Positions 5,002-22,763 of a DNA stretch of 22,763 nt are shown in pieces. Within the stretch, counting starts at the first letter, position 1, and each line of letters begins with the position of its first letter. The position numbers and the translations under genes are program-made. The notes beneath the pieces were generated by a model. That model did no database searches. It had not been told where the DNA came from and saw nothing but the letters and a program-made list of their open reading frames with translations. Origin of the DNA: a virus; the IMG/VR virus record IMGVR_UViG_3300020201_000100, positions 1 to 22,763 of that record; one strand, written 5' to 3'.

Positions 5002-5294
5002 GCGGCGGCCCGCGCTTCGATCAACCGGCGCACGGTCCGCGCGTGGGACCGTGCCCGTTGATGGTGCGCGCTCCAGCGCTGCCCGCTGCGCGCTTTTTCG
5101 TTCGCGCGTGCGCACGACGCGCAGAACCGCGATTGGGGGCGCGTGATCTTTCGCCGACAGGTGACACATTGCCGCCGATCAGCGCGCCGGCACGAGGGGC
5201 AATACGCGCCGCTCGCGCCCGTGCGGAGCGTGTCGCGGCAGACCTGGTTCCGGCCGGGCAATCGCTTGTGGCAGGGGGTGCCGACGGGGCTCAT
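4998..5294 (-). CDS. Zinc-ribbon/Cys-rich basic protein
   Basis: A 98-residue, strongly basic protein with several CxxC pairs: CPSC at about residue 34, CVTC at about 45 and CASC at about 59, plus isolated cysteines near the N-terminus. These suggest one or two zinc ribbons that bind nucleic acid. The C-terminal third is Arg/Ala-rich. The ATG overlaps the RNA-ligase stop, and its stop overlaps the HTH start (ATGA at both ends), fixing the start at 5294. No named family is recognised. Confidence 0.72.
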   Translation of the reverse strand: MSPVGTPCHKRLPGRNQVCRDTLRTGASGAYCPSCRRADRRQCVTCRRKITRPQSRFCASCARANEKARSGQRWSAHHQRARSHARTVRRLIEARAAA

Positions 5295-6211
5295 GCGGCA
5301 CGCTCCGGCGGAAAGGCCTCCGCCAGCAATTGCGTCTTGTACCATTCGGGCAGCCCCGCCAATACGCCGCGCTGAATCTGTGGCCACGCCCAGTTGAATA
5401 GCTTCGTCTTGATGTAGTCCGCCTCGTCGTTGCGCAAATCGGACGCCGCCTCTTTCATCAGCGCGCCGATGTCGCGCGCGTCGCCTTGTCGCGTGCCTGC
5501 CTCTTTCAGGTGCTGGACGCTCTTCTGCCAGCGCGCTTCGGTTTTGAGCTCGTGGATAAGGCGCGCCACGACATCGCCCGCCTGTGGATTGGACCGTTTC
5601 CATTCTTTTTTGTGCGTCTCTTTGAACGCTTCGGTGACATACTTGCCCATCAACACTTTGTGGTCAGGCGTGTAGTGTGCGTAATTTTTTGCTACGATGC
5701 CTTCTGGTTGAATGGGTCCGAGCATCGAATGGCTGGGGAGGAGCGCCTGCAATTGCTGGACGGAGTCCAGGGGGCCGTGAAAAAGGACGGGCACGCATTC
5801 CAGTCCGATGCGTTGTGCTTCCGTGGCGCGATCATCGGGCGCCATATAGTCTTGGTCACCACGGTCGATATCAAAGAGCACGATGTATCCCACGGGGACA
5901 CGCGCGTACGCGAGCGTATTGTGTTTCGGCTTTTGCAGGTACTCGCCGCGATAGGTGTATCCCGGAGTGAGGAGCGGGGCGCGCTGTGTGATGGCGTCGA
6001 CCCCACGGACGAACATGCCCTCGGGCGCTGCACTGTCGATAGCAGCGCCGCGTGACCGACAGTGGAGCGCGCCATCGTGCGTAAGGCGAAAGGAGAACTG
6101 CGAGCCGTCGATTTTTTCTTCGACCACGACCGGGCCGTCGAACAACCGGTCGGCGCCCTTGTGGCCGAGGCCGAGCGGCGAGGAGTAGCTGGGAATGGTT
6201 CGTTCAGACAT
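5291..6211 (-). CDS. RNA ligase (Rnl2-like nucleotidyltransferase)
   Basis: A 306-residue ATP-dependent ligase that would adenylate itself on lysine and join RNA ends. The nucleotidyltransferase motifs appear in order: motif I EEKIDGS with adenylated K33, motif III YRGEYL with E90, motif IIIa VLFDID at 111-116, motif IV EGIVAKNY with E170, and motif V VLMGKYV with K190. The approximately 100-residue C-terminal helical part is family-variable. Phage RNA ligases repair host-cleaved tRNAs, classically with a polynucleotide kinase; no kinase is visible here. The ATG at 6211 overlaps the truncated methyltransferase ORF by 8 bases. Rnl2-type PF09414 is the best guess; a DNA-ligase role is less likely because no OB or zinc domain follows. 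Confidence 0.85.
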   Translation of the reverse strand: MSERTIPSYSSPLGLGHKGADRLFDGPVVVEEKIDGSQFSFRLTHDGALHCRSRGAAIDSAAPEGMFVRGVDAITQRAPLLTPGYTYRGEYLQKPKHNTLAYARVPVGYIVLFDIDRGDQDYMAPDDRATEAQRIGLECVPVLFHGPLDSVQQLQALLPSHSMLGPIQPEGIVAKNYAHYTPDHKVLMGKYVTEAFKETHKKEWKRSNPQAGDVVARLIHELKTEARWQKSVQHLKEAGTRQGDARDIGALMKEAASDLRNDEADYIKTKLFNWAWPQIQRGVLAGLPEWYKTQLLAEAFPPERAA

Positions 6212-6551: not shown

Positions 6552-7588
6552 GCCGCCCCCAGATCAAGCGTTTCCTGCGAGCACCGGCGCGCGGCGATCT
6601 CGCAATACCGTTCGTCGATCTCGATGCCGATGGCGCGACGGCCGAGCGATTTCGCGGCGACGAGGGTCGTGCCGCTGCCCATGAAAGGGTCGAGGACGGT
6701 ATCGCCAACACGCGAACTCGCTGCAACAAGGTGCAGCATCAGCGACAACGGCTTTTGCGCGGGGTGATGGCGGTTACGCTCTACCCCAAACCGCCACACG
6801 TCACCCCACTGCGCCTGAGCGGTAAGGAAGAACGGCCGGCGGAGGTCTTCGTACTCGCGGCGGAGGTCTTCGTACTCGCGGCGGAGGTCTTCGTACTCGC
6901 GGCGGAGGTAGTCGCCCCCCGCTTTCTCGTTGAACAGCGCGCGCAATTTTAAGTAGGCAGCCCCAGTCGGCAGCGCCCACTGTGACGCGCCGAAATAGTG
7001 TCCGGCCATTCCCGCCGTCCCCAAACACAGGTCGACTTCGCGATTGCTGACGCCAGCAGCATCACGCTCAGCCACGAGATACGCGCGGATCGGCTCAAAT
7101 ACGCCCGCGCGCGCCTTCGCGTCCTCGGCGGCATAACCGGACCCCCGCAGCGCGGACCCGTCAGCGCCGTGCCGTTCCGCAACGATAACGCGTTCGGTGT
7201 TCGCGGTCCAGAACGTGCGCAGCGATGTGACGTCGACCCCCGATCCCGCCGCGCCTTTGCGCCCGTCCGACTTATCCCACACGGCGCTCGCAATCACGTT
7301 GAGCCGTGTTCTGACTTGGACATCCATCCGCCCGGACATTTGCGGAGAGCAGAAAAAGTAAAACGTCGCGTTATCGGTACTGGTGGAGATAGCACGCGCG
7401 GTAACGTCATCCATCCACGCTAAAAACGCGGCATCGTCAGCCCATTGGTTATCCCAATCGTCGGCAAGTACGCCGTTGTACGGCGGATCGGTCAACACAA
7501 GCGCCACCCCGCTCAGCGTCGGCAGCACCTCCCGACAATCCCCGTGATAAATTGTGACGCTGGCGTCCTGATAGTATGGCGCGCTCAT
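6548..7588 (-). CDS. N6-adenine/N4-cytosine DNA methyltransferase
   Basis: A 346-residue methyltransferase. The catalytic motif DPPY is at residues 34-37 and the SAM-binding DPFMGSGTT is at 300-308, so motif IV precedes motif I, the beta-class order of N6/N4 enzymes. Between them lies a variable region that should set the target sequence. It contains three tandem copies of a heptad reading REYEDLR (about residues 229-251), encoded by perfect 21-bp DNA repeats. The ATG at 7588 overlaps the stop of the small membrane-protein gene (ATGA), which selects this start over a longer read-through. No restriction enzyme lies beside it, so an orphan phage enzyme protecting its own DNA is likely. Adenine versus cytosine specificity cannot be told. 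Confidence 0.9.
6840..6909. repeat. 21-bp tandem repeat in methyltransferase gene
   Basis: Three identical 21-bp units lie at 6840-6860, 6861-6881 and 6882-6902, followed by a 7-base partial copy. They encode heptads with Arg, Glu, Tyr, Glu, Asp, Leu and Arg, likely a helical rod. Copy-number change would keep the reading frame. Confidence 0.95.
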
Positions 7589-10679: not shown

Positions 10680-11034
10680 CTCGATAGACCGGGTAGATGG
10701 TGGCGTCTTGTGCGCCGTTCGGAGTCGTTGCATGGCGGGTGGCCTCGCTACGGTGCGTGAAGAACGATGACGAGCCGTCCGCAAACACCACTTGCCACCC
10801 ATCACTCACCGTCCCCCGTTCGCGCGCGGCGAGTTGAGTTTCAAGTGCGCGGATACGCGCGGCCTGCGTTGACAGCTCGTGGCCAATATCGAACCAGCTC
10901 CGGCGGTCCTCGGGCAATGCGTTGATGGCCATCGCCGCGTCACGCTGCGCCTTGAGCGCGTCGATGTACTGCTCGACGGCGCGAACGTCCCGCCGCATGT
11001 TGCGCACTTCGTCTGGCTCTGCCGGGTTCGTCAT
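10654..11034 (-). CDS. Coiled-coil hypothetical protein (126 aa)
   Basis: A 126-residue protein. Residues of about 15-75 form charged helices with coiled-coil character (QYIDALKAQRDAAMAI, then ARIRALETQLAARERG). This is followed by a compact stretch (DGWQVVFADGSSSFFTHRSEA) that looks like beta strands. The ATG at 11034 overlaps the pentapeptide gene stop (ATGA). The end (ALAEAS) is shared with the downstream 48-residue gene. Function unknown. Confidence 0.65.
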   Translation of the reverse strand: MTNPAEPDEVRNMRRDVRAVEQYIDALKAQRDAAMAINALPEDRRSWFDIGHELSTQAARIRALETQLAARERGTVSDGWQVVFADGSSSFFTHRSEATRHATTPNGAQDATIYPVYRGAALAEAS

Positions 11035-11375
11035 CGGTTATATCCAAGTACAAGGTGCGCGCCGAGAAAGGTCGCCCCGCGCAAGTCCGCGCCGAGAAAG
11101 GTCGCCCCGCGCAAGTCCGCGCCGAGAAAGGTCGCCCCGCGCAAGTCCGCGCCGGAAAAGTCCGCGCCGCGCAGGTCCGCGCCGGAAAGGTCCGCGCCGA
11201 AAAGTTGCGCCCCGCGCAAGTCCGCATCGGAAAGGTCCGTCTTACGAAGGTCCGCGCTGAAGAGCATCGCACCGCTCCTGACGGCAGTCTCCACCAGCTC
11301 GCGCAATGTTCCCGCGTCACCTTCGTATACGATCCGATTACTGTCCCAACAGTCCCTAATAACGAATTGCGTCAT
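11031..11375 (-). CDS. Pentapeptide-repeat protein
   Basis: A 114-residue protein. The N-terminal 35 residues are non-repetitive (helix LRELVETAVRSG). From about residue 37 it is a chain of A(D/N)LxG-type pentapeptides (SADLR, SDADL, GADLSG, GADFSG, GATFLG). These build a right-handed quadrilateral beta-helix, which in some families mimics DNA and binds gyrase. The repeat run is about 65 residues, short but enough for three or more coils. Three of its 30-bp units are identical in DNA. The start at 11375 overlaps the upstream stop (ATGA). A DNA-mimic or anti-gyrase role is only a possibility. Confidence 0.88.
   Translation of the reverse strand: MTQFVIRDCWDSNRIVYEGDAGTLRELVETAVRSGAMLFSADLRKTDLSDADLRGAQLFGADLSGADLRGADFSGADLRGATFLGADLRGATFLGADLRGATFLGAHLVLGYNR
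11061..11150. repeat. Perfect 30-bp tandem repeat
   Basis: Three identical 30-bp units lie at 11061-11090, 11091-11120 and 11121-11150, each encoding two pentapeptides. Decayed copies continue to about 11240. The perfect identity at synonymous positions points to recent expansion. Confidence 0.95.
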
Positions 11376-12466: not shown

Positions 12467-13246
12467 TCATCGTCCGCCCTTCAGCACAATTACGGCACGG
12501 TCGTAGTCCACAAGATGCTCCGGGTAGTGGTATTGCAGCCACGCGCGGTAGCCGTGCGCGTCCGCTGTTTGGTTCGGCATCCACGTGCCGTCGCGCAACC
12601 GCTCAAGATTGAATTGCAAGTGCTGCCGCTCGTAAACCGGATTCAACGGCAATTGATTGCTGGCCAGGATAGCACCGACCACCTCGTCCGCGGTCCAGTC
12701 GCCGAGTGGGTTGCAGGTCAGCCGCCCACGCATGCGATACGTGTGGCCGCGCAGGTCGGCGTTCCAGGACCGGCCCCGACTCTCCGCGCGTCGCAATCCC
12801 ATCGCGAGCCCGTCCCCGCCTTCGTCGCGCTGCCGCTCTTCGAGTGCGGTGATTTTCCAGCTCTTGATTCCGTGTCGATACGGCACATCGCCAGCGAGCA
12901 CACCGGCCACATCGTAGGTGTACGGCACGATCAACCAGTCCCCGCCCGCCGCCCGCTCCAGCTGCGCCACGTGCGCGGCGCGGTCCGACAGCGACACCGG
13001 CCCATCGGCGCGCATCGCCGGGACGCGGGCATCAATCCCGCGCACCAGCTGCAGCAACAACGTGCTGTCCTTCCCGCCGCTGCATGCGATGATCGGGCGC
13101 TCACACTGGCCCAACCAGCGGTCAATGATCCGCTGCGACCGCGCAATTTTCTGCCGGACTACCGCCGTCCGCCCCAGCGCGACGAGCAGCGCGAGCCTGC
13201 TTTTGACGACCGTAGTGTGCGTGTTGTGTAGCTGCGTTAGCATCAT
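12467..13246 (-). CDS. cysH: CysH/PAPS-reductase-like protein of the csf module
   Basis: A 259-residue protein of the PP-loop phosphoadenosine-phosphosulfate reductase family. Motifs: P-loop IIACSGGKDST (about residues 52-62), MGLRRAESRGR (149-159) and NPLGDWTADEV (179-189), followed by LPLNPVYER. These are the nucleotide-binding parts; the redox Cys motif of true reductases (ECGLH) is absent, so sulfate assimilation is unlikely. A CysH-like protein is the known ancillary partner of type IV-B CRISPR-Cas, and csf3-like, csf2-like and csf1-like genes lie immediately upstream. Its start overlaps the csf3 3' end by over 120 bases; ATG at 13261, 13246 or 13243 are possible. Family assignment is confident, role inferred from neighbours. 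Alternative: a nucleic-acid modification enzyme related to DndC. Confidence 0.85.
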   Translation of the reverse strand: MMLTQLHNTHTTVVKSRLALLVALGRTAVVRQKIARSQRIIDRWLGQCERPIIACSGGKDSTLLLQLVRGIDARVPAMRADGPVSLSDRAAHVAQLERAAGGDWLIVPYTYDVAGVLAGDVPYRHGIKSWKITALEERQRDEGGDGLAMGLRRAESRGRSWNADLRGHTYRMRGRLTCNPLGDWTADEVVGAILASNQLPLNPVYERQHLQFNLERLRDGTWMPNQTADAHGYRAWLQYHYPEHLVDYDRAVIVLKGGR

Positions 13247-13931
13247 GGCGCAAAAGGTCAAGGTAGTAAGGCGCCACCGTCACCGGTGACCCGGCGCGCG
13301 CGACGTGTTCGCGCTGTTGCGCCGGGTGCCAATAGGGGTATTCCAAGGCCGCGGTACCCAATTCGCCGTGTTCGAGGAGCACCGCTTGCGGGAGGTTGCG
13401 TTGCGCCAAGCCATCCCGCACCCACACACACGCCGGATCTAGGTCGGGGTCGTCCGCCACCGTCCATTCTCGGACTTGCCCGTGACCCGCGCCCCGCATC
13501 TGGCCAAGGTGCGTAATGCGTCGCGCCAGCCGGATCAGCCCACGCCGATGGCCGACGGCATACCAGCGCACCCACGGCGTGACGACGGACGTCAGTTTCG
13601 TCCAGCGATTTTTCCCAGGTCCGAGCCCGAGGTGGATCGGCTGGGCCAGCGATTCGATATCAAGGCCGTCGCGGCGCTTCACGACGTCGATGGTGGCCAG
13701 TCGTGCGTCGTCGGCGAACTGCGCGGCCGTGCAGTAGTACATCTGTTCCCGGTGGACACGCACACTTTGCATCGGCAGTGGGGGCCGTACGAATGCGGAC
13801 GGTGCCGTCTCCCGTCCGATGGGTTCAGCGCGGCACATCGGGTGCGCGCTGGCCAGCAGCCCGTCGAGGTGGAGCTCTTGGCTGAGGACAATCGGTGCGT
13901 CCATCACGGCCGTGATTATGAGGACGCCCAT
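13122..13931 (-). CDS. csf3: Csf3-like RAMP protein (type IV Cas5)
   Basis: A 269-residue protein resembling Csf3, the Cas5-like RAMP subunit that caps the 5' end of a type IV effector. Evidence: the opening strand plus helix LIITAVMDAPIV...HLDGLLA, the mid-protein VVKRRD, the pattern RWYAVGHRRGLIRL, and the glycine-rich RAMP loop LGQMRGAGHGQVREW (residues 142-156) at the usual C-terminal position. The ATG overlaps the csf2-like TAA by one base (TAATG). The last 40-46 residues are encoded in the out-of-frame overlap with cysH and are low-complexity, so the natural domain may end near residue 223. Whether it processes RNA cannot be told. Confidence 0.82.
   Translation of the reverse strand: MGVLIITAVMDAPIVLSQELHLDGLLASAHPMCRAEPIGRETAPSAFVRPPLPMQSVRVHREQMYYCTAAQFADDARLATIDVVKRRDGLDIESLAQPIHLGLGPGKNRWTKLTSVVTPWVRWYAVGHRRGLIRLARRITHLGQMRGAGHGQVREWTVADDPDLDPACVWVRDGLAQRNLPQAVLLEHGELGTAALEYPYWHPAQQREHVARAGSPVTVAPYYLDLLRHDANAATQHAHYGRQKQARAARRAGADGGSPAENCAVAADH
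13279..13290. promoter_or_regulatory. 12-bp perfect palindrome before cysH
   Basis: GTCACCGGTGAC is a perfect inverted repeat 18 bases upstream of the first cysH-like ATG, inside the csf3-like coding sequence. It could be an operator half-site pair or a minor RNA structure affecting cysH translation; chance is also possible in GC-rich coding DNA. Confidence 0.25.
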
Positions 13932-14776
13932 TACATCGACTCCACAGCGATTTTCCAGAGCGCCAACCGCGCGCGCGCAATCTGTGCGTCATCGGCGAGC
14001 CACGCCTCATACGGCGTCGCGTCGAGGGGGTGCGTCACCTGCACCCTCCCGAAGCCGGCGCCGGTCTTGCCTCCAATCATCGAGAGCAGGTCCATCCCGT
14101 GCGCGAGGCAGCCGGATTCCTCTGGCGTCAATCGAGTCATCGGGATGATGGTGGTCGTGAGCACGGTACCGGGAATCAGCGCTTCGACGGTCACCGGCAT
14201 GGGCGTGACGCCGCTCAGCGAGGGGTCTTGCCAGTCGCGGTCGATGTGGCGCGTGAGGGCGGTTTCGACGATCAAGTCATCGGCATCACGGAGCCCCTCA
14301 ATAGGCGCACACAATCCGGCGTGCACGGTTTCGGTGCACGTGGGATAACACCATCCCACGGACATCTGGCCTGGCAGCATATAGCTATACAGCGCGGCGC
14401 CGAACAACGACAACGCGGGGAGCGCGTCCCGCAGCGCACGTCGGTCTGCCGGGTTCGCGCGCGACTCGCTACCGGTGAGGTGCCCACCATTCGCGAGCGC
14501 TCCGTACAGCTTATCCCACTGTTTCGGCGACAATCCCGCCGTCACACGCGATAGGTCGCACCGCTCGAATAGTTCTCGCATCACGAGACGTCGCAGCGCC
14601 CCGCGTAACGCATTCCCGGACAAGACCGGTATGCCCGCCCGCTGGGGCGCGCTCGCCAAGGGGATGCGGCGCAGCGCGACCGCGTTTCCGGTGTCCTCGC
14701 CGAACGCGCCGTGGTGGAGCGGGCTCTCGCACCGCAGCGTGACGACCCACCGGGGGATATTCATTGTTGCACTCAT
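13931..14776 (-). CDS. csf2: Csf2-like RAMP protein (type IV Cas7 backbone)
   Basis: A 281-residue RAMP-superfamily protein fitting Csf2, the Cas7 subunit that polymerises along the guide RNA. Visible: an opening strand with LRCESPLHHG, the RAMP hallmark LSGNALRGALRRLVMREL (residues 52-69), the ALSLFGAALYSYMLPGQM stretch with LFG typical of Cas7/Csm3-type backbones, and the glycine-rich loop IGGKTGAGFGRVQV near 234-247. Length matches the family. The ATG at 14776 overlaps the csf1-like stop (ATGA). A plain CRISPR-unrelated RAMP is the alternative, but the neighbours make type IV more likely. Confidence 0.87.
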   Translation of the reverse strand: MSATMNIPRWVVTLRCESPLHHGAFGEDTGNAVALRRIPLASAPQRAGIPVLSGNALRGALRRLVMRELFERCDLSRVTAGLSPKQWDKLYGALANGGHLTGSESRANPADRRALRDALPALSLFGAALYSYMLPGQMSVGWCYPTCTETVHAGLCAPIEGLRDADDLIVETALTRHIDRDWQDPSLSGVTPMPVTVEALIPGTVLTTTIIPMTRLTPEESGCLAHGMDLLSMIGGKTGAGFGRVQVTHPLDATPYEAWLADDAQIARARLALWKIAVESM

Positions 14777-15819
14777 AGGGCGAGCTCGTGGGAAGCGGCG
14801 ACGGCCGCAGGTTTCTGTTTGCGCGCCTCGTACGTGAGCGCGATCAGCACCGGCGTGTGCTGGTGAATGCGTTTCATGAGTGCGTCCTGCTCGCTCGCGT
14901 CAAGCGTGCGCAGTGTCTCGTCCACGACGCGCGCGGCTTCGCCGGTGGGCTCTACTTGCAGGTCCTGCATGATGCGAGTCAGAAACTGCGGCAGGGGCCG
15001 GTGGGCGTGCCGTTGGACGCGCCGCAGAAAAAACGAGGACCAGAATTGAATCGGGTTCGCGTTCCGAAACTGACTGCTCCGCGCGAGCGGGCCGAGAAGC
15101 GCGATCGCGCGTTCGTCCTCACGTTCAAGCATGGGGGGTGGTGGTGAGAGGGGAGCGTCAGACACCGGGCAGTGTTCGACGTACAACTGCAGCGCGGCAG
15201 TGCCGCGCCACGGAGCGATTTGTGCTTCCGCCTGGGACCATCGCGCCGCGCCTAATGCGGCGATGGTGGACGGGCGGTATTCGCCGCTGAGGATTTCGGC
15301 CCGTGTGCACGCTGCCTTGGCCGCCGGGCCGCTGCGCAGGTCGCACAACGCGGCCACCAGCGGGCGCATACGTAGCGGCGACACGGGAATCACCGCATCG
15401 TCACTCCCGATGCGCAGGTGTCCGCTGGTCGAGCGCTCGGCCGTGAAATGGTGTTGCCGTTGCGCGGACGTGGCCCATGACAGCACTTCAATCCCTGGCG
15501 AGGGGTGCAGGAGGGTCGCCCACAATTGCTTGCGGTCGTGCGGCACGAACACGCCGTCAATCACCGCGAAACTGCGGAGCCGCAGCGGAAACACGACGTC
15601 GCCGCCCCGGCCCCGCATCAAGCGATGGCACCCGGTGCAAATCACCGCGCCGCTGCGGTTCGCCATCAAATGCCAATCACTCCACCCGATGCCCAGGATA
15701 TCCTGGCTCTTCCCCGCGACATCGAACGGCGATTCTCCACAGCTCGCGCACTGGCATCCAGCGCCAGTGCTGATTCCAAGTGCGAGCGCCGTGCGATGTC
15801 GCGCTTCGCGTGTGCTCAT
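14773..15819 (-). CDS. csf1: Csf1-like protein with C-terminal helical extension
   Basis: A 348-residue protein at the head of the csf block. It opens with a zinc finger, CASC (24-27) and CTGC (61-64), the arrangement expected of Csf1, the Cas8-like subunit of type IV effectors. A Pro-rich linker (about residues 223-229) separates a C-terminal approximately 120-residue helical part (ERAIALLGPLARSSQF to EARKQK). Csf1 proteins are usually nearer 200-260 residues, so the extension is a candidate fused Cas11-type small subunit, which type IV-B otherwise encodes separately. The ATG at 15819 overlaps the glycosidase stop (ATGA). Csf1 sequences are very divergent: identity rests on the zinc finger, size, and the csf2/csf3-like neighbours. 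Confidence 0.7.
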   Translation of the reverse strand: MSTREARHRTALALGISTGAGCQCASCGESPFDVAGKSQDILGIGWSDWHLMANRSGAVICTGCHRLMRGRGGDVVFPLRLRSFAVIDGVFVPHDRKQLWATLLHPSPGIEVLSWATSAQRQHHFTAERSTSGHLRIGSDDAVIPVSPLRMRPLVAALCDLRSGPAAKAACTRAEILSGEYRPSTIAALGAARWSQAEAQIAPWRGTAALQLYVEHCPVSDAPLSPPPPMLEREDERAIALLGPLARSSQFRNANPIQFWSSFFLRRVQRHAHRPLPQFLTRIMQDLQVEPTGEAARVVDETLRTLDASEQDALMKRIHQHTPVLIALTYEARKQKPAAVAASHELAL

Positions 15820-20175: not shown

Positions 20176-20681
20176 TACTTGATCCGCAGCGATTGCGCTT
20201 GCACCAGCGAACAGCCGTCAATGATCTCGCCCGCTTTCAATGCGGCTTTGATCGCGCTTTTGTCGGCCTCCAACGTCTGCGGAATGATTCGCACAAACGC
20301 AGCGGGCAACGCGCCCGGCAGCACATCGACTTGCACCGACGGCGGGTTGTTCTGGACGGCCAGCGTGAACAGCGAGCCCTCCACACGGTTGCGCCCCATC
20401 GTCTGCAACGCGAACAGCGCGCGACGCATCAGCCAGTCCCTTTTGCCTTCAATACTCTTGCGGCGGCTGGCCAATCGCGTTTCTTCTTCTTTAATGGCCG
20501 ATGCGTTCGCCTCCATCTCGCGCACAAACCCGCCGAACGCATCGGCCTTGAGTGCAAGCTTGCCTGCGAGTTCGTCGGCAAGGTTCGCTGCTTCGTCAGT
20601 CCACTCGCCTTCATCCATCGCAATCAGCGCGTCCAGCGCCACGCGCTCTTCGGCGAGTTCGTACAGCGTCAACGTCTGCAT
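20175..20681 (-). CDS. Siphovirus Gp157-like protein
   Basis: A 168-residue protein fitting the Gp157 family: N-terminal LYELAEERVALDAL, long charged helices (EMEANASAIKEEETRLASRRKSIEGKRDWL) forming a coiled coil, and a C-terminal part with FTLAVQNNPPSVQV and VPD-like beta strands. The family is found in early phage operons, and one member was reported to protect against other phages; the role here is unproven. GGAGG lies 8 bases before the ATG, the clearest ribosome site in the region, which fixes the start against a longer frame. It overlaps the zinc-ribbon gene by 13 bases. Confidence 0.87.
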   Translation of the reverse strand: MQTLTLYELAEERVALDALIAMDEGEWTDEAANLADELAGKLALKADAFGGFVREMEANASAIKEEETRLASRRKSIEGKRDWLMRRALFALQTMGRNRVEGSLFTLAVQNNPPSVQVDVLPGALPAAFVRIIPQTLEADKSAIKAALKAGEIIDGCSLVQAQSLRIK

Positions 20682-20899
20682 CGCTGCTCCTCCAGTAAGG
20701 TTGATTGTAGTGTCTCCAAATCCAACGCGGTCAGCAGATAGGTGCACTGCTCGCACTCGTCCAACTGGATATCAAACCGCGCGGGCTCTTCCGGGCTCGG
20801 GCCGGTGTCGCTGTAATGCGCCGCGGGCACACGGGGCACGAACGCGACGTCAAACTCGGTGACGTGCTCGCACTGCGGGCACAAAAACGCGTTTACCAT
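20669..20899 (-). CDS. Zinc-ribbon protein (76 aa)
   Basis: A 76-residue protein with CPQC near residue 7 and CEQC near residue 49, a split zinc ribbon, separated by an acidic and Pro-rich stretch. It ends with a helix (LETLQSTLLEEQRCRR). It starts with ATG at 20899, overlapping the upstream 46-residue gene by 7 bases. Similar small proteins accompany Gp157-like genes; no specific function is known to me. Confidence 0.72.
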   Translation of the reverse strand: MVNAFLCPQCEHVTEFDVAFVPRVPAAHYSDTGPSPEEPARFDIQLDECEQCTYLLTALDLETLQSTLLEEQRCRR

Positions 20900-21033
20900 C
20901 GGTCGCGGCGTTGCATGGATTGTTGCGCCAACAGCAAATCAATTTTGGTAATCGGGTGCGCGTGTTTTCGGCCCAGCTTGATGCCAAGGAGGAGCGCCGC
21001 GCAGACGGAGATCAGCCAGTAGAGGGCGGTCAT
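20893..21033 (-). CDS. 46-residue membrane protein
   Basis: Starts MTALYWLISVCAALLLGIKL, an N-terminal single transmembrane helix, followed by a basic cytoplasmic-type tail ending QRRDRW and TAA. The ATG overlaps the upstream stop (ATGA). Unknown function. Confidence 0.6.
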   Translation of the reverse strand: MTALYWLISVCAALLLGIKLGRKHAHPITKIDLLLAQQSMQRRDRW

Positions 21034-21317
21034 GCTTCGCGCTCCAGCACGCGATCTGCCGATTCGCGCGCGGTCTTGTTGCGCCGATATTGTTTGGCGT
21101 AGTCCCGCGCGCCCGCGAGGTATCCGGTGCGGTGGTTTGCGATGAGCGCCGACGCTTTGCCGTCCCGGAACGCGTTCGTGGCGATCGCGTCCTCTCGCTT
21201 CGCTTGGCTCGCCTGCTGGTCGGCCGATGCGTCGGCGCGCTTCGAGGCGTGGAGCATCCCCGCAATCACGACGCCGAAACAGGCGCCAACGCTGAGAGCG
21301 ATCAGGTGGGAAATCAT
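21030..21317 (-). CDS. Membrane-anchored hypothetical protein (95 aa)
   Basis: A 95-residue protein beginning MISHLIALSVGACFGVVIAG, a single N-terminal transmembrane helix, followed by a charged, mainly helical tail (SKRADASADQQASQAKRED, then a Lys/Arg-rich end). This layout resembles inner-membrane accessory proteins. A spanin is not proposed, because no lysis genes lie nearby. ATGA overlaps at both ends fix the boundaries. Confidence 0.62.
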   Translation of the reverse strand: MISHLIALSVGACFGVVIAGMLHASKRADASADQQASQAKREDAIATNAFRDGKASALIANHRTGYLAGARDYAKQYRRNKTARESADRVLEREA

Positions 21318-21544
21318 GCGGCCTGTCCCTCGGCGCTCCGCACAATCGCCACCAGCCGCCACTGTGCGCCCTTGTGCAATATCTGGCGCGACACGGTGCA
21401 ATCGCTCGGCACGGGCAGGCGCACGGTGCGGCCTGGGTGCGCGATGGCTTCGTAGACAAGCACGCGGTCGTCGAGATCAGCGAGCAAGCGCGTGTAGCCT
21501 GGGTGCGTCGGAGACGGCAGGCGTCCGGCGGCAAAATTTTTCAT
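21314..21544 (-). CDS. Hypothetical phage protein (76 aa)
   Basis: A 76-residue protein of unknown family, with beta-like alternation (DRVLVYEAIAHPGRTVRLPVPS, then WRLVAIVRS). It overlaps its neighbours by ATGA on both sides. No motif is recognised. Confidence 0.6.
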   Translation of the reverse strand: MKNFAAGRLPSPTHPGYTRLLADLDDRVLVYEAIAHPGRTVRLPVPSDCTVSRQILHKGAQWRLVAIVRSAEGQAA

Positions 21545-21747
21545 GACTCATACTCCAGCGAGGGGATACGGAGCGGGGGATTGATGGACTGCTGCAGCCG
21601 CGCGACCACGCGGTCGGTGTGCGCGGTGTGGGCTTTTATTTCCGCGATCACGCGGCGCGCTTCTTTGCACACGGCGTAGCCGTCGGCCATGGCTTGCGCA
21701 TAGGCGGCTTCTTCGGCCCAATACTCGGCGCGGTGGGGGGTGGTCAT
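21541..21747 (-). CDS. Helical hypothetical protein (68 aa)
   Basis: A 68-residue Ala-rich helical protein (AEEAAYAQAMADGYAVCKEARRVIAEIK), possibly a short coiled coil. ATGA overlaps at both ends. Unknown function. Confidence 0.6.
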   Translation of the reverse strand: MTTPHRAEYWAEEAAYAQAMADGYAVCKEARRVIAEIKAHTAHTDRVVARLQQSINPPLRIPSLEYES

Positions 21748-22265
21748 AGCGCGCGCGCTCCGCGGACCAGCGTCAACGGTGGCCGCGCCTGCTGACCCAT
21801 CAGCCGATTCCCCAATTGCAGCGCCGTGCTGGCGTGCCGGTACAGCGTGCGCGCGGTCAGCATCCGGACCTCTGCGGTCGCATCTTTCGCCAGCGCGCGC
21901 GGCATCATCTTATTGGCTTCCGCTTCGGCGTGTGTCTCCGCGTCGTGCAGCGCCATCGGATCACCGAACACCGGCGACGCCGCGATCTCTGCAAGGCGGA
22001 ACGCGACATCTTGCGCGAAGGTCAGCGTCTCGATCGCCGACAGACGCGGCACCACGGCCATTATGCAGGCTGTGGCGGTTTCGAGCGTGGCGCTGCGGCC
22101 TCGGAGAAAATCTTTGAGCATGGTGCGCAGCGTGTCCGGCAGCACGACGCGCGGCGACACGGGGCGGATCGCCTCGCGCACGACATCGACGAACCGCTGT
22201 GTTTGCTGCCGGGCGGTCGCCCTGTCCGTCACGATTGGTGACGGGAATTGCAGAATGGTTGCCAT
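21744..22265 (-). CDS. Hypothetical early phage protein (173 aa)
   Basis: First gene of the visible early operon: a 173-residue mostly helical protein starting MATILQFPSP, with no recognised domain. AGGAG lies about 11 bases before the ATG, and this start is chosen over upstream in-frame ATGs at 22370 and beyond, whose translation runs through the low-complexity tract. Its stop overlaps the next ATG (ATGA). The length and even codon use argue for a real gene. Confidence 0.7.
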   Translation of the reverse strand: MATILQFPSPIVTDRATARQQTQRFVDVVREAIRPVSPRVVLPDTLRTMLKDFLRGRSATLETATACIMAVVPRLSAIETLTFAQDVAFRLAEIAASPVFGDPMALHDAETHAEAEANKMMPRALAKDATAEVRMLTARTLYRHASTALQLGNRLMGQQARPPLTLVRGARAL

Positions 22266-22296
22266 TGCCTCGGTCTCCTGCGGTGGTAGATTGTGA

Positions 22297-22316
22297 GAGC
22301 CCGTTGATGCGGGCTC
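22297..22316 (-). other. Hairpin in the leader of the early operon
   Basis: A perfect 7-bp stem (GAGCCCG/CGGGCTC) with a 6-base loop, 31 bases upstream of the ATG at 22265. No T-run follows on the coding strand, so termination is unlikely; an RNA stability or translation element is possible. Confidence 0.4.
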
Positions 22317-22349
22317 CTCGGTCCACAGATCGGTCGCCCGCGATGGCGG

Positions 22350-22763
22350 CCGATTCTGTTTGGTGCCCATGCCTTGCCTGCCATGCCTCGCCTTGCCGCG
22401 CCGCGCCAAGCCGCGCCCGGCCCTGCCTTGCCTGCCGTGCCATGCCATGCCCTGCCACGCCCCACCGAGCCTCGCCTGCCTTGCCTCGCCGCGCCAAGCC
22501 AGGCCCCGCCTAGCCGCGCCTGCCGTGCCATGCCGTGCCATGCCGTGCCATGCCCAGCCGTGCCCTGCCTTGCCTGCCGTGCCGCGCCTCGCCTCGCCGT
22601 GCCTAGCCCAGCCGTGCCGAGCCGCGCCTCGCCTGCCTATTGGTGCCCATGCCTCGCCTGCCTTGCCTCGCCTCGCCGCGCCAAGCCAAGCCCCGCCAAG
22701 CCGCGCCTGCCGTGCCTAGCCTAGCCGCGCCATGCCTAGCCCCGCCTCGCCTGCCGTGCCGTG
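22350..22763 (-). repeat. Degenerate GGCNN pentanucleotide tract
   Basis: About 400 bases to the window edge consist largely of 5-base units, GCCNN on the plus strand and so GGCNN on the coding strand, with occasional 4-base slips (GCCT). The two variable bases differ from unit to unit. An internal duplication shows as TTGGTGCCCATGCC at 22360 and again at 22640, 280 bases apart. No gene is supported inside; open frames across it give only Arg/Ala/Gly-rich junk. It may be a structured leader, a spacer or a genome-end feature. Confidence 0.85.

Follow-up and report, generated by a model that had tools for sequence, protein, structure and literature searches.

A GGCNN pentamer tract cut by a viral contig end very probably belongs to a phage VIPR system as its vrRNA array, in a compact GGCA-punctuated form

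The window analysed here, a whole viral stretch of 22,763 bases, runs out in several hundred bases where GGC triplets recur with two free bases between them. What is such DNA for? The initial annotation offered a structured RNA leader, a packaging or recombination tract, or a replication spacer. We find that the tract is very probably the vrRNA array of a phage VIPR system, whose vipr gene and putative accessory gene lie just off the contig. Among the roles first proposed, one as RNA is judged the likeliest, and one in packaging, recombination or replication is not supported.

The minus strand of 22360-22763 is a GGCNN chain of 79 GGC triplets with 78 gaps, of which 65 measure five bases, nine measure four (all GGCA), two measure six and two measure ten. 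This confirms the unit of five bases with two free positions, and the 65 five-base units are of 14 kinds. On the plus strand, GCC pairs five bases apart number 65 in the tract versus at most three in any 414-base piece clear of it, when such pieces are taken in 50-base steps along the whole record, so the repeat does not arise from composition alone. C stands at the first free position in just 2 of the 65 units, and in about 13% of the 3715 units overall (245 chains); this avoidance keeps GGCC away and may leave the RNA unfolded.

The 14 bases TTGGTGCCCATGCC occur at 22360 and again at 22640, exactly 280 apart as first noticed, and on the minus strand they form the end of a guide block. The block duplication read from them holds in part. 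Beyond the 14-base element and outside the shared GCC, 22 of 49 positions agree at offset 280, still more than a quarter, but most of the total agreement there (95/124 bases, 77%) is forced by the common GGC frame. The record consists of a single contig and the tract continues up to its final base, so the true tract end lies off the contig. The parts are collected in Table 1.

Table 1. Parts of the probable array in the window, its possible 3′ tail and the first gene downstream (L147 is the overlapping contig described in the text)
Feature	Position	Strand	Basis
Probable vrRNA guide array of GGCNN units, cut by the contig end	22360..22763	minus	pattern; 126/126 bases identical with the L147 end
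Putative guide segment, 8 dinucleotides GA GG TA AT GC TA TA AC	22712..22751	minus	present in L147 too
Putative guide segment, 9 dinucleotides GC TT GG TT TT GC GA GA AA	22663..22707	minus	present in L147 too
Inner copy of the block end, GGCGA GGCATGGGCACCAATA	22638..22658	minus	repeat comparison
Putative guide segment, 11 dinucleotides	22579..22633	minus	
Putative guide segment, 10 dinucleotides	22525..22574	minus	
Putative guide segment, 8 dinucleotides, near-copy of 22663-22707	22481..22520	minus	
Putative guide segment, 8 units, one of them GGT	22437..22476	minus	
Putative guide segment, 10 dinucleotides	22383..22432	minus	
Final block end, GGCAA GGCATGGGCACCAAA, then a possible structured, hairpin-bearing 3′ tail, up to the start of the next gene	22266..22378	minus	fold score
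First gene past the array, MATILQF..., 173 aa, AGGAG ahead of ATG at 22265	21744..22265	minus	reading frame

The near-copy segments in the table share 81% over eight units (GC TT GG TT TT GC GA GA AA versus GC TA GG CT TT GC GA AA). Past the tract, the 101 bases of 22266-22366, which double as leader to the following gene, have a fold of -38.8 kcal/mol where shuffles average -29.3 (z -2.79, with 2 of 200 shuffles as good), as would suit a vrRNA tail. Rfam gives no match to this tail region at gathering scores. A promoter scan of 21700-22763 finds none on either strand and a sole terminator-like site on the opposite strand, and a tRNA scan finds none.

The tract was rightly placed upstream of an early-type gene block, and the nameable genes downstream of it are all on the minus strand. 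The first gene past the array, scanned with one extra codon, has no Pfam or PHROG match at E≤0.01, and a single-query search of viral contigs with it confirms no relative. The helicase and primase of the window have relatives only below 60% identity, spread over many phages. Elsewhere on the minus strand lie an RNA ligase family gene (5291-6211; Pfam PF09414, 4e-12) and, at 11031-11375, what appears by eye to be a pentapeptide-repeat-like protein with ADLRG units, its DNA having 15-base repeats. A perfect 21-base repeat in 3.5 copies (6837-6909) sits within a DNA methylase gene. Compared by BLAST with phage records, neither the tract nor the window has a match; low-complexity filtering may mask the tract.

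A 2026 preprint (PMC13142463) describes, in its main text, Vipr as a phage RAMP that works with vrRNAs of 9–16 YNNGG (GGY/NN) repeats and a structured tail. By the same text, VIPR recognises double-stranded DNA with one skipped base per dinucleotide, silences genes and targets competing elements, and comes in seven types with varied array forms, among which that of SUSP1 has four separate vrRNAs of ~100 nt. No second VIPR paper is found by title among the literature matches listed, nor anything relevant by title among those listed for pentanucleotide GGC repeats in phage.

The window tract has the same fixed GGY and variable NN in tandem pentamers. It resembles the vrRNAs of SUSP1, an Escherichia phage, and those of a prophage in Pseudomonas fulva, as the main text of PMC13142463 presents them, in being GGY/NN pentamers with variable NN, noncoding and phage-encoded. 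It further resembles them in the adjoining Vipr RAMP gene, which stands here on L147, and would do so in the putative accessory gene of that contig and in the possible folded 3′ tail. Class 1 CRISPR arrays (types III and IV) are likewise guide banks for a Cas7-like RAMP protein, but the tract differs from them in having no long direct repeats with contiguous spacers, its information lying in separated dinucleotides.

Does a protein go with such tracts generally? A scan of IMG/VR for the repeat only, ten GGC triplets at 5-base steps, finds such tracts in at least 120 other viral stretches; two of them (L111 and L113) lie in one record, which leaves 119 distinct records among the stretches listed. 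By clustering, the tracts stay on one strand per stretch, with the exception of one short tract in L115. A strand count of flanking open reading frames (113/148 downstream and 104/148 upstream on the GGC strand) was set aside for the strand count of the Vipr genes below, because GC-rich shadow frames blur it.

A profile seeded with six proteins, chosen by two motifs seen in tract loci viewed with short flanks, and iterated once shows one protein family encoded in 88 of the 120 tract loci listed. The family gene is on the GGC strand in 87 of these 88, and all 87 lie within 1 kb of the tract at a median of 29 bases, the tract being only 3′ of the gene in 46, on both sides in 26 and only 5′ in 15. 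The full records of the remaining 32 loci add two matches, a piece of 29 positions in L046 and that in L113, which shares the already counted L111 record, so the family total is 89 of 119 distinct records. The 30 other records have no Vipr by the profile, and some are long (up to 48 kb).

The family matches Vipr, and its fold is predicted to be that of a Cas7-like RAMP. In the alignment of 62 of the 82 near-complete members, G170, G174, R179 and G183 are invariant, which together with the fold matches below fits a glycine-rich loop and an RRM-type core; 61 of the 62 match phrog_4652, of unknown function. The alignment profile matches PDB 36pp_D, the 'SUSP1 Vipr protein', at E=2e-36, the next PDB match being at 0.095. 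None of six members scores above the curated cut-offs of Pfam/NCBIfam (weak matches at E 0.03 to 0.23), and none of six is matched by PADLOC at E 0.1. An AlphaFold2 model of one member (L110; pLDDT 96), compared by Foldseek with structures up to early April 2026, matches Csm3 and other Cas7-like chains with a best E of 1.2e-5; all of its best 50 matches, of which 48 reach E≤1e-3, are to chains of Csm, Cmr, type III-D or type VII.

Other tracts show further forms. In L006 (1995-2351) the guides are split by a 9-base junction, GGCGTTCA(G/C/A), in place of GGCA, and in L013 (2145-2427) three guides each have a similar tail behind them that looks like a hairpin (AAACACACTGCATCTC...GTTTGC or nearly so). 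A tract that looks variable by eye goes without a profile Vipr in 26 of the 119 records (L010, L018, L052, L069, L079, L098, L107 and others); these may be orphan vrRNAs borrowing Vipr from another element, companions of divergent Viprs, or fragments.

The window stops inside the array and hence lacks a Vipr; the Vipr profile has no match in its record. A vipr gene is found through an overlapping contig. Searching for the block end preceded by GGCRA gives seven stretches, three of which look array-like or repeat-like by eye (L141, which has a Vipr, the simple repeat L145, and L147) and four of which do not. L147 is the end of a 40,765-base contig and is identical to the window end over 126 bases, two guides included, and over 130 of 133 bases in all, the three differences falling in the last seven bases of its contig. 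The rest of its record has no further match to 20500-22763 of the window at E≤0.001.

From this overlap, L147 and the window would be contigs from a single phage or from two closely related ones, with the break falling in the repeat; the three differences in the last seven bases may mean a close relative and not the same genome. The overlap also answers in part the concern that the tract is an assembly artefact, as a separate contig has the same 126 bases and similar tracts stand in the other viral stretches.

The gene order of L147 is vipr, a 147-aa gene overlapping the vipr end by four bases, and the array. Its Vipr has 215 aa and matches the family profile at E 8.3e-50, phrog_4652, and 36pp_D as a single sequence at 1.6e-4. 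The 147-aa gene is phrog_15946 and a putative accessory (vap-like) gene, a family found in 28 of the 120 tract loci listed, 27 of the 28 having a Vipr. On the drawn Vipr tree, read by eye, all 27 loci fall in the same half of 34 rows.

How is the array divided? When the window and L147 arrays are joined, eight segments of 8–11 dinucleotides (74 units) are separated by GGCA or a block end, and two shorter segments of six and three units stand at the 5′ side. Of the 183 four-base units in 245 chains, those of the window among them, 157 read GGCA; A comes first in about a third of the ordinary units. The spacing between successive short units is 7–13 units in 81 of 107 cases, with a mode of 9. 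From these we infer that GGCA is a boundary between guides.

Arrays with at least two GGCA, a cut-off for 'punctuated' that was set after seeing the data, make up 19 of 34 rows in one half of the Vipr tree versus 3 of 48 in the other, the tree being a quick one with near-copies included. On the same tree the trait takes 14 changes, a number as low in 2 of 500 shuffles. The L147 Vipr, added later, falls in the same half within a supported set of 14 rows, as expected from the form of its array; the row closest to it, L007, contains one GGCA only and is classed as plain.

This form differs from those in the main text of PMC13142463. Unlike the separate vrRNAs of SUSP1, the window and L147 present one compact tract whose eight segments of 8–11 units are mostly tail-less and split by GGCA. 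The window segments measure 8, 9, 11, 10, 8, 8 and 10 units between short units, and those of 8 would, if a segment corresponds to one vrRNA, lie below the published 9–16. GGCA-split guides of 8–11 dinucleotides are absent from that main text, and the 'staggered arrays with overlapping vrRNAs' of the preprint may be the same architecture. We suggest only tentatively, with the balance somewhat against it, that the arrays of one tree half use a register slip (GGCA) as punctuation, ending each of many tail-less guides of 8–11 dinucleotides in long transcripts, neighbouring vrRNAs sharing units, and that the window phage adds a second RNA-guided machine, a type IV complex without a visible array, on the same strand.

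That complex raises the question of whose array this is. The window encodes Csf2-, Csf3- and Csf1-like proteins (PADLOC 6.5e-40, 2.5e-27 and 9.5e-16) together with a PAPS reductase at 12467-15819 on the minus strand, and Csf2 is a Cas7-like protein as Vipr is. All the Csf-like proteins score below the NCBIfam curated cut-offs, so the module is divergent. Its closest viral relatives, L126 and L127, are at about 40% identity, and the window Csf2 as a single query in viral contigs confirms no relative. No CRISPR-like array appears in 1-22300, where direct repeats of at least 18 bases within 120 bases give three tandem families, none CRISPR-like. The PAPS reductase also has a PADLOC match to BrxP at 2.7e-5.

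The array could then serve the Csf complex of the same record, instead of or besides Vipr, and two records would lend this some colour. The L089 record (L168, L169) has a Vipr, an array, a helicase and a primase, with Csf2 and Csf3 on the same strand some 12 kb past the array, and the L139 record, one of 14 viral records with Csf2 relatives, has a Vipr elsewhere (L140). The survey run both ways speaks against it, as no GGYNN tract is found by pattern in any of the 14 viral records or of four plasmids with Csf2 relatives, and a type IV Cas7 is found in only 1 of the 119 other tract records, that of L089, and not in the L147 record, by a search that recovers the window's own copy. Csf genes and a tract both occur in the window, but arrays are not linked to Csf genes across records. 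Moreover, an ordinary vipr adjoins the same array in L147, and L089 has a Vipr as well. Ownership by the type IV complex is hence improbable; by this survey the array belongs with Vipr, and a phage having both VIPR and type IV is uncommon but not unique.

The L140 Vipr frame looks whole (217 aa), though one stop is counted in the matched stretch, and no GGYNN tract accompanies it by pattern. As to gene order, a Sak4-like gene, a DUF669-like gene and Vipr with its array follow one another in L002, L005, L050, L089 and L109, and a helicase and a primase come next in all of these except L002, a short contig. In the window, an integrase and the type IV module come between the Sak4 and DUF669 genes and the helicase.

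The tract might also be a non-functional simple sequence left by slippage, as a few pattern matches are indeed perfect or nearly perfect microsatellites (L051, L056, L093 and L094, 4 of the 30 Vipr-less tracts). Slippage yields identical units, against the variety of units in the window, and it leaves unaccounted for that GGC stays fixed while NN varies, that one strand only is used and that one gene family adjoins. This origin is therefore very unlikely.

TRAP sites are NAGNN. The period of five in the tract resembles them, and the tract might be a structured regulatory leader or a TRAP-like protein target of a triplet and a two-base spacer. However, the 414-nt repeat tract folds no better than its shuffles (z -1.16, 13 of 100 at least as good), which leaves the structured RNA leader of the initial annotation unsupported, and the associated protein family is a RAMP; we give this explanation hardly any weight. 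That the repeat codes for an N-terminal extension of the downstream gene is next to incredible, as the 265-aa frame that crosses part of the tract (22541-21744) begins within it and misses the 5′ half, the downstream gene is equipped with a separate AGGAG and start codon, and the tracts look intergenic by eye in nine other loci viewed with short flanks.

What the guides are aimed at was sought in sequence collections with three of the seven in the window, 22579-22633, 22383-22432 and 22663-22707, and no convincing target is found among the guides searched. The 20-base skip pattern of 22579-22633 (10 of 11 units) has 0 matches in viral and 0 in genome contigs, and the 18 bases of 22383-22432 (9 of 10 units) have 0 in viral contigs. 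The whole of 22663-22707 (18 bases) has five viral matches, all one sequence, and 14 genome matches in unrelated taxa. By an uncontrolled count, the base it skips is the third of a codon in the longest open frame for 9 of the 14 genome and 5 of the 5 viral matches; this codon phase would fit the skip rule, but the matches were treated as chance.

Against the tract loci, the best scores of 242 nine-unit guide pieces equal those of permuted guides at skips 0–3. An earlier, apparent preference for skip 1 when at least 15 of 16 letters match (178 versus 92, 66 and 56 for skips 0, 2 and 3) is gone at 16 of 16 (28 versus 31, 0 and 4) and was dropped because many of the listed matches came from microsatellite loci.

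The VIPR reading is based here on the repeat, its strand, the link to the Vipr family, the family fold, the L147 vipr with a putative vap gene, and the well-folding tail. Against it count the absence of a Vipr from the window record, the chance that L147 is a close relative, the tract records without a profile Vipr, the fruitless target searches and the segments of 8 units. By analogy with the VIPRs in the main text of PMC13142463, the production of the RNA, its binding by Vipr, the one-base-skip reading and the silencing would extend to this phage. The minus-strand array would lie behind vipr and the putative accessory gene. As a small RAMP of the Cas7-like kind, Vipr would grip the GGC triplets and keep the NN pairs free. 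Taken one after another, these pairs would recognise a double-stranded DNA target in which a single base is passed over from one pair to the next, and the complex, once bound, would stop a competing element from being transcribed.

In summary, the VIPR system itself is already published, and the window array is very probably a further case of it in a compact, GGCA-punctuated form. An odd repeat in raw sequence thereby becomes recognisable as a likely phage weapon, and a one-line DNA pattern finds VIPR loci in metagenomes without knowledge of the protein. The compact form makes the GGCA boundary directly testable, and a phage that apparently carries VIPR together with a type IV module, both RNA-guided, is well suited to asking how such systems divide or pool their tasks.
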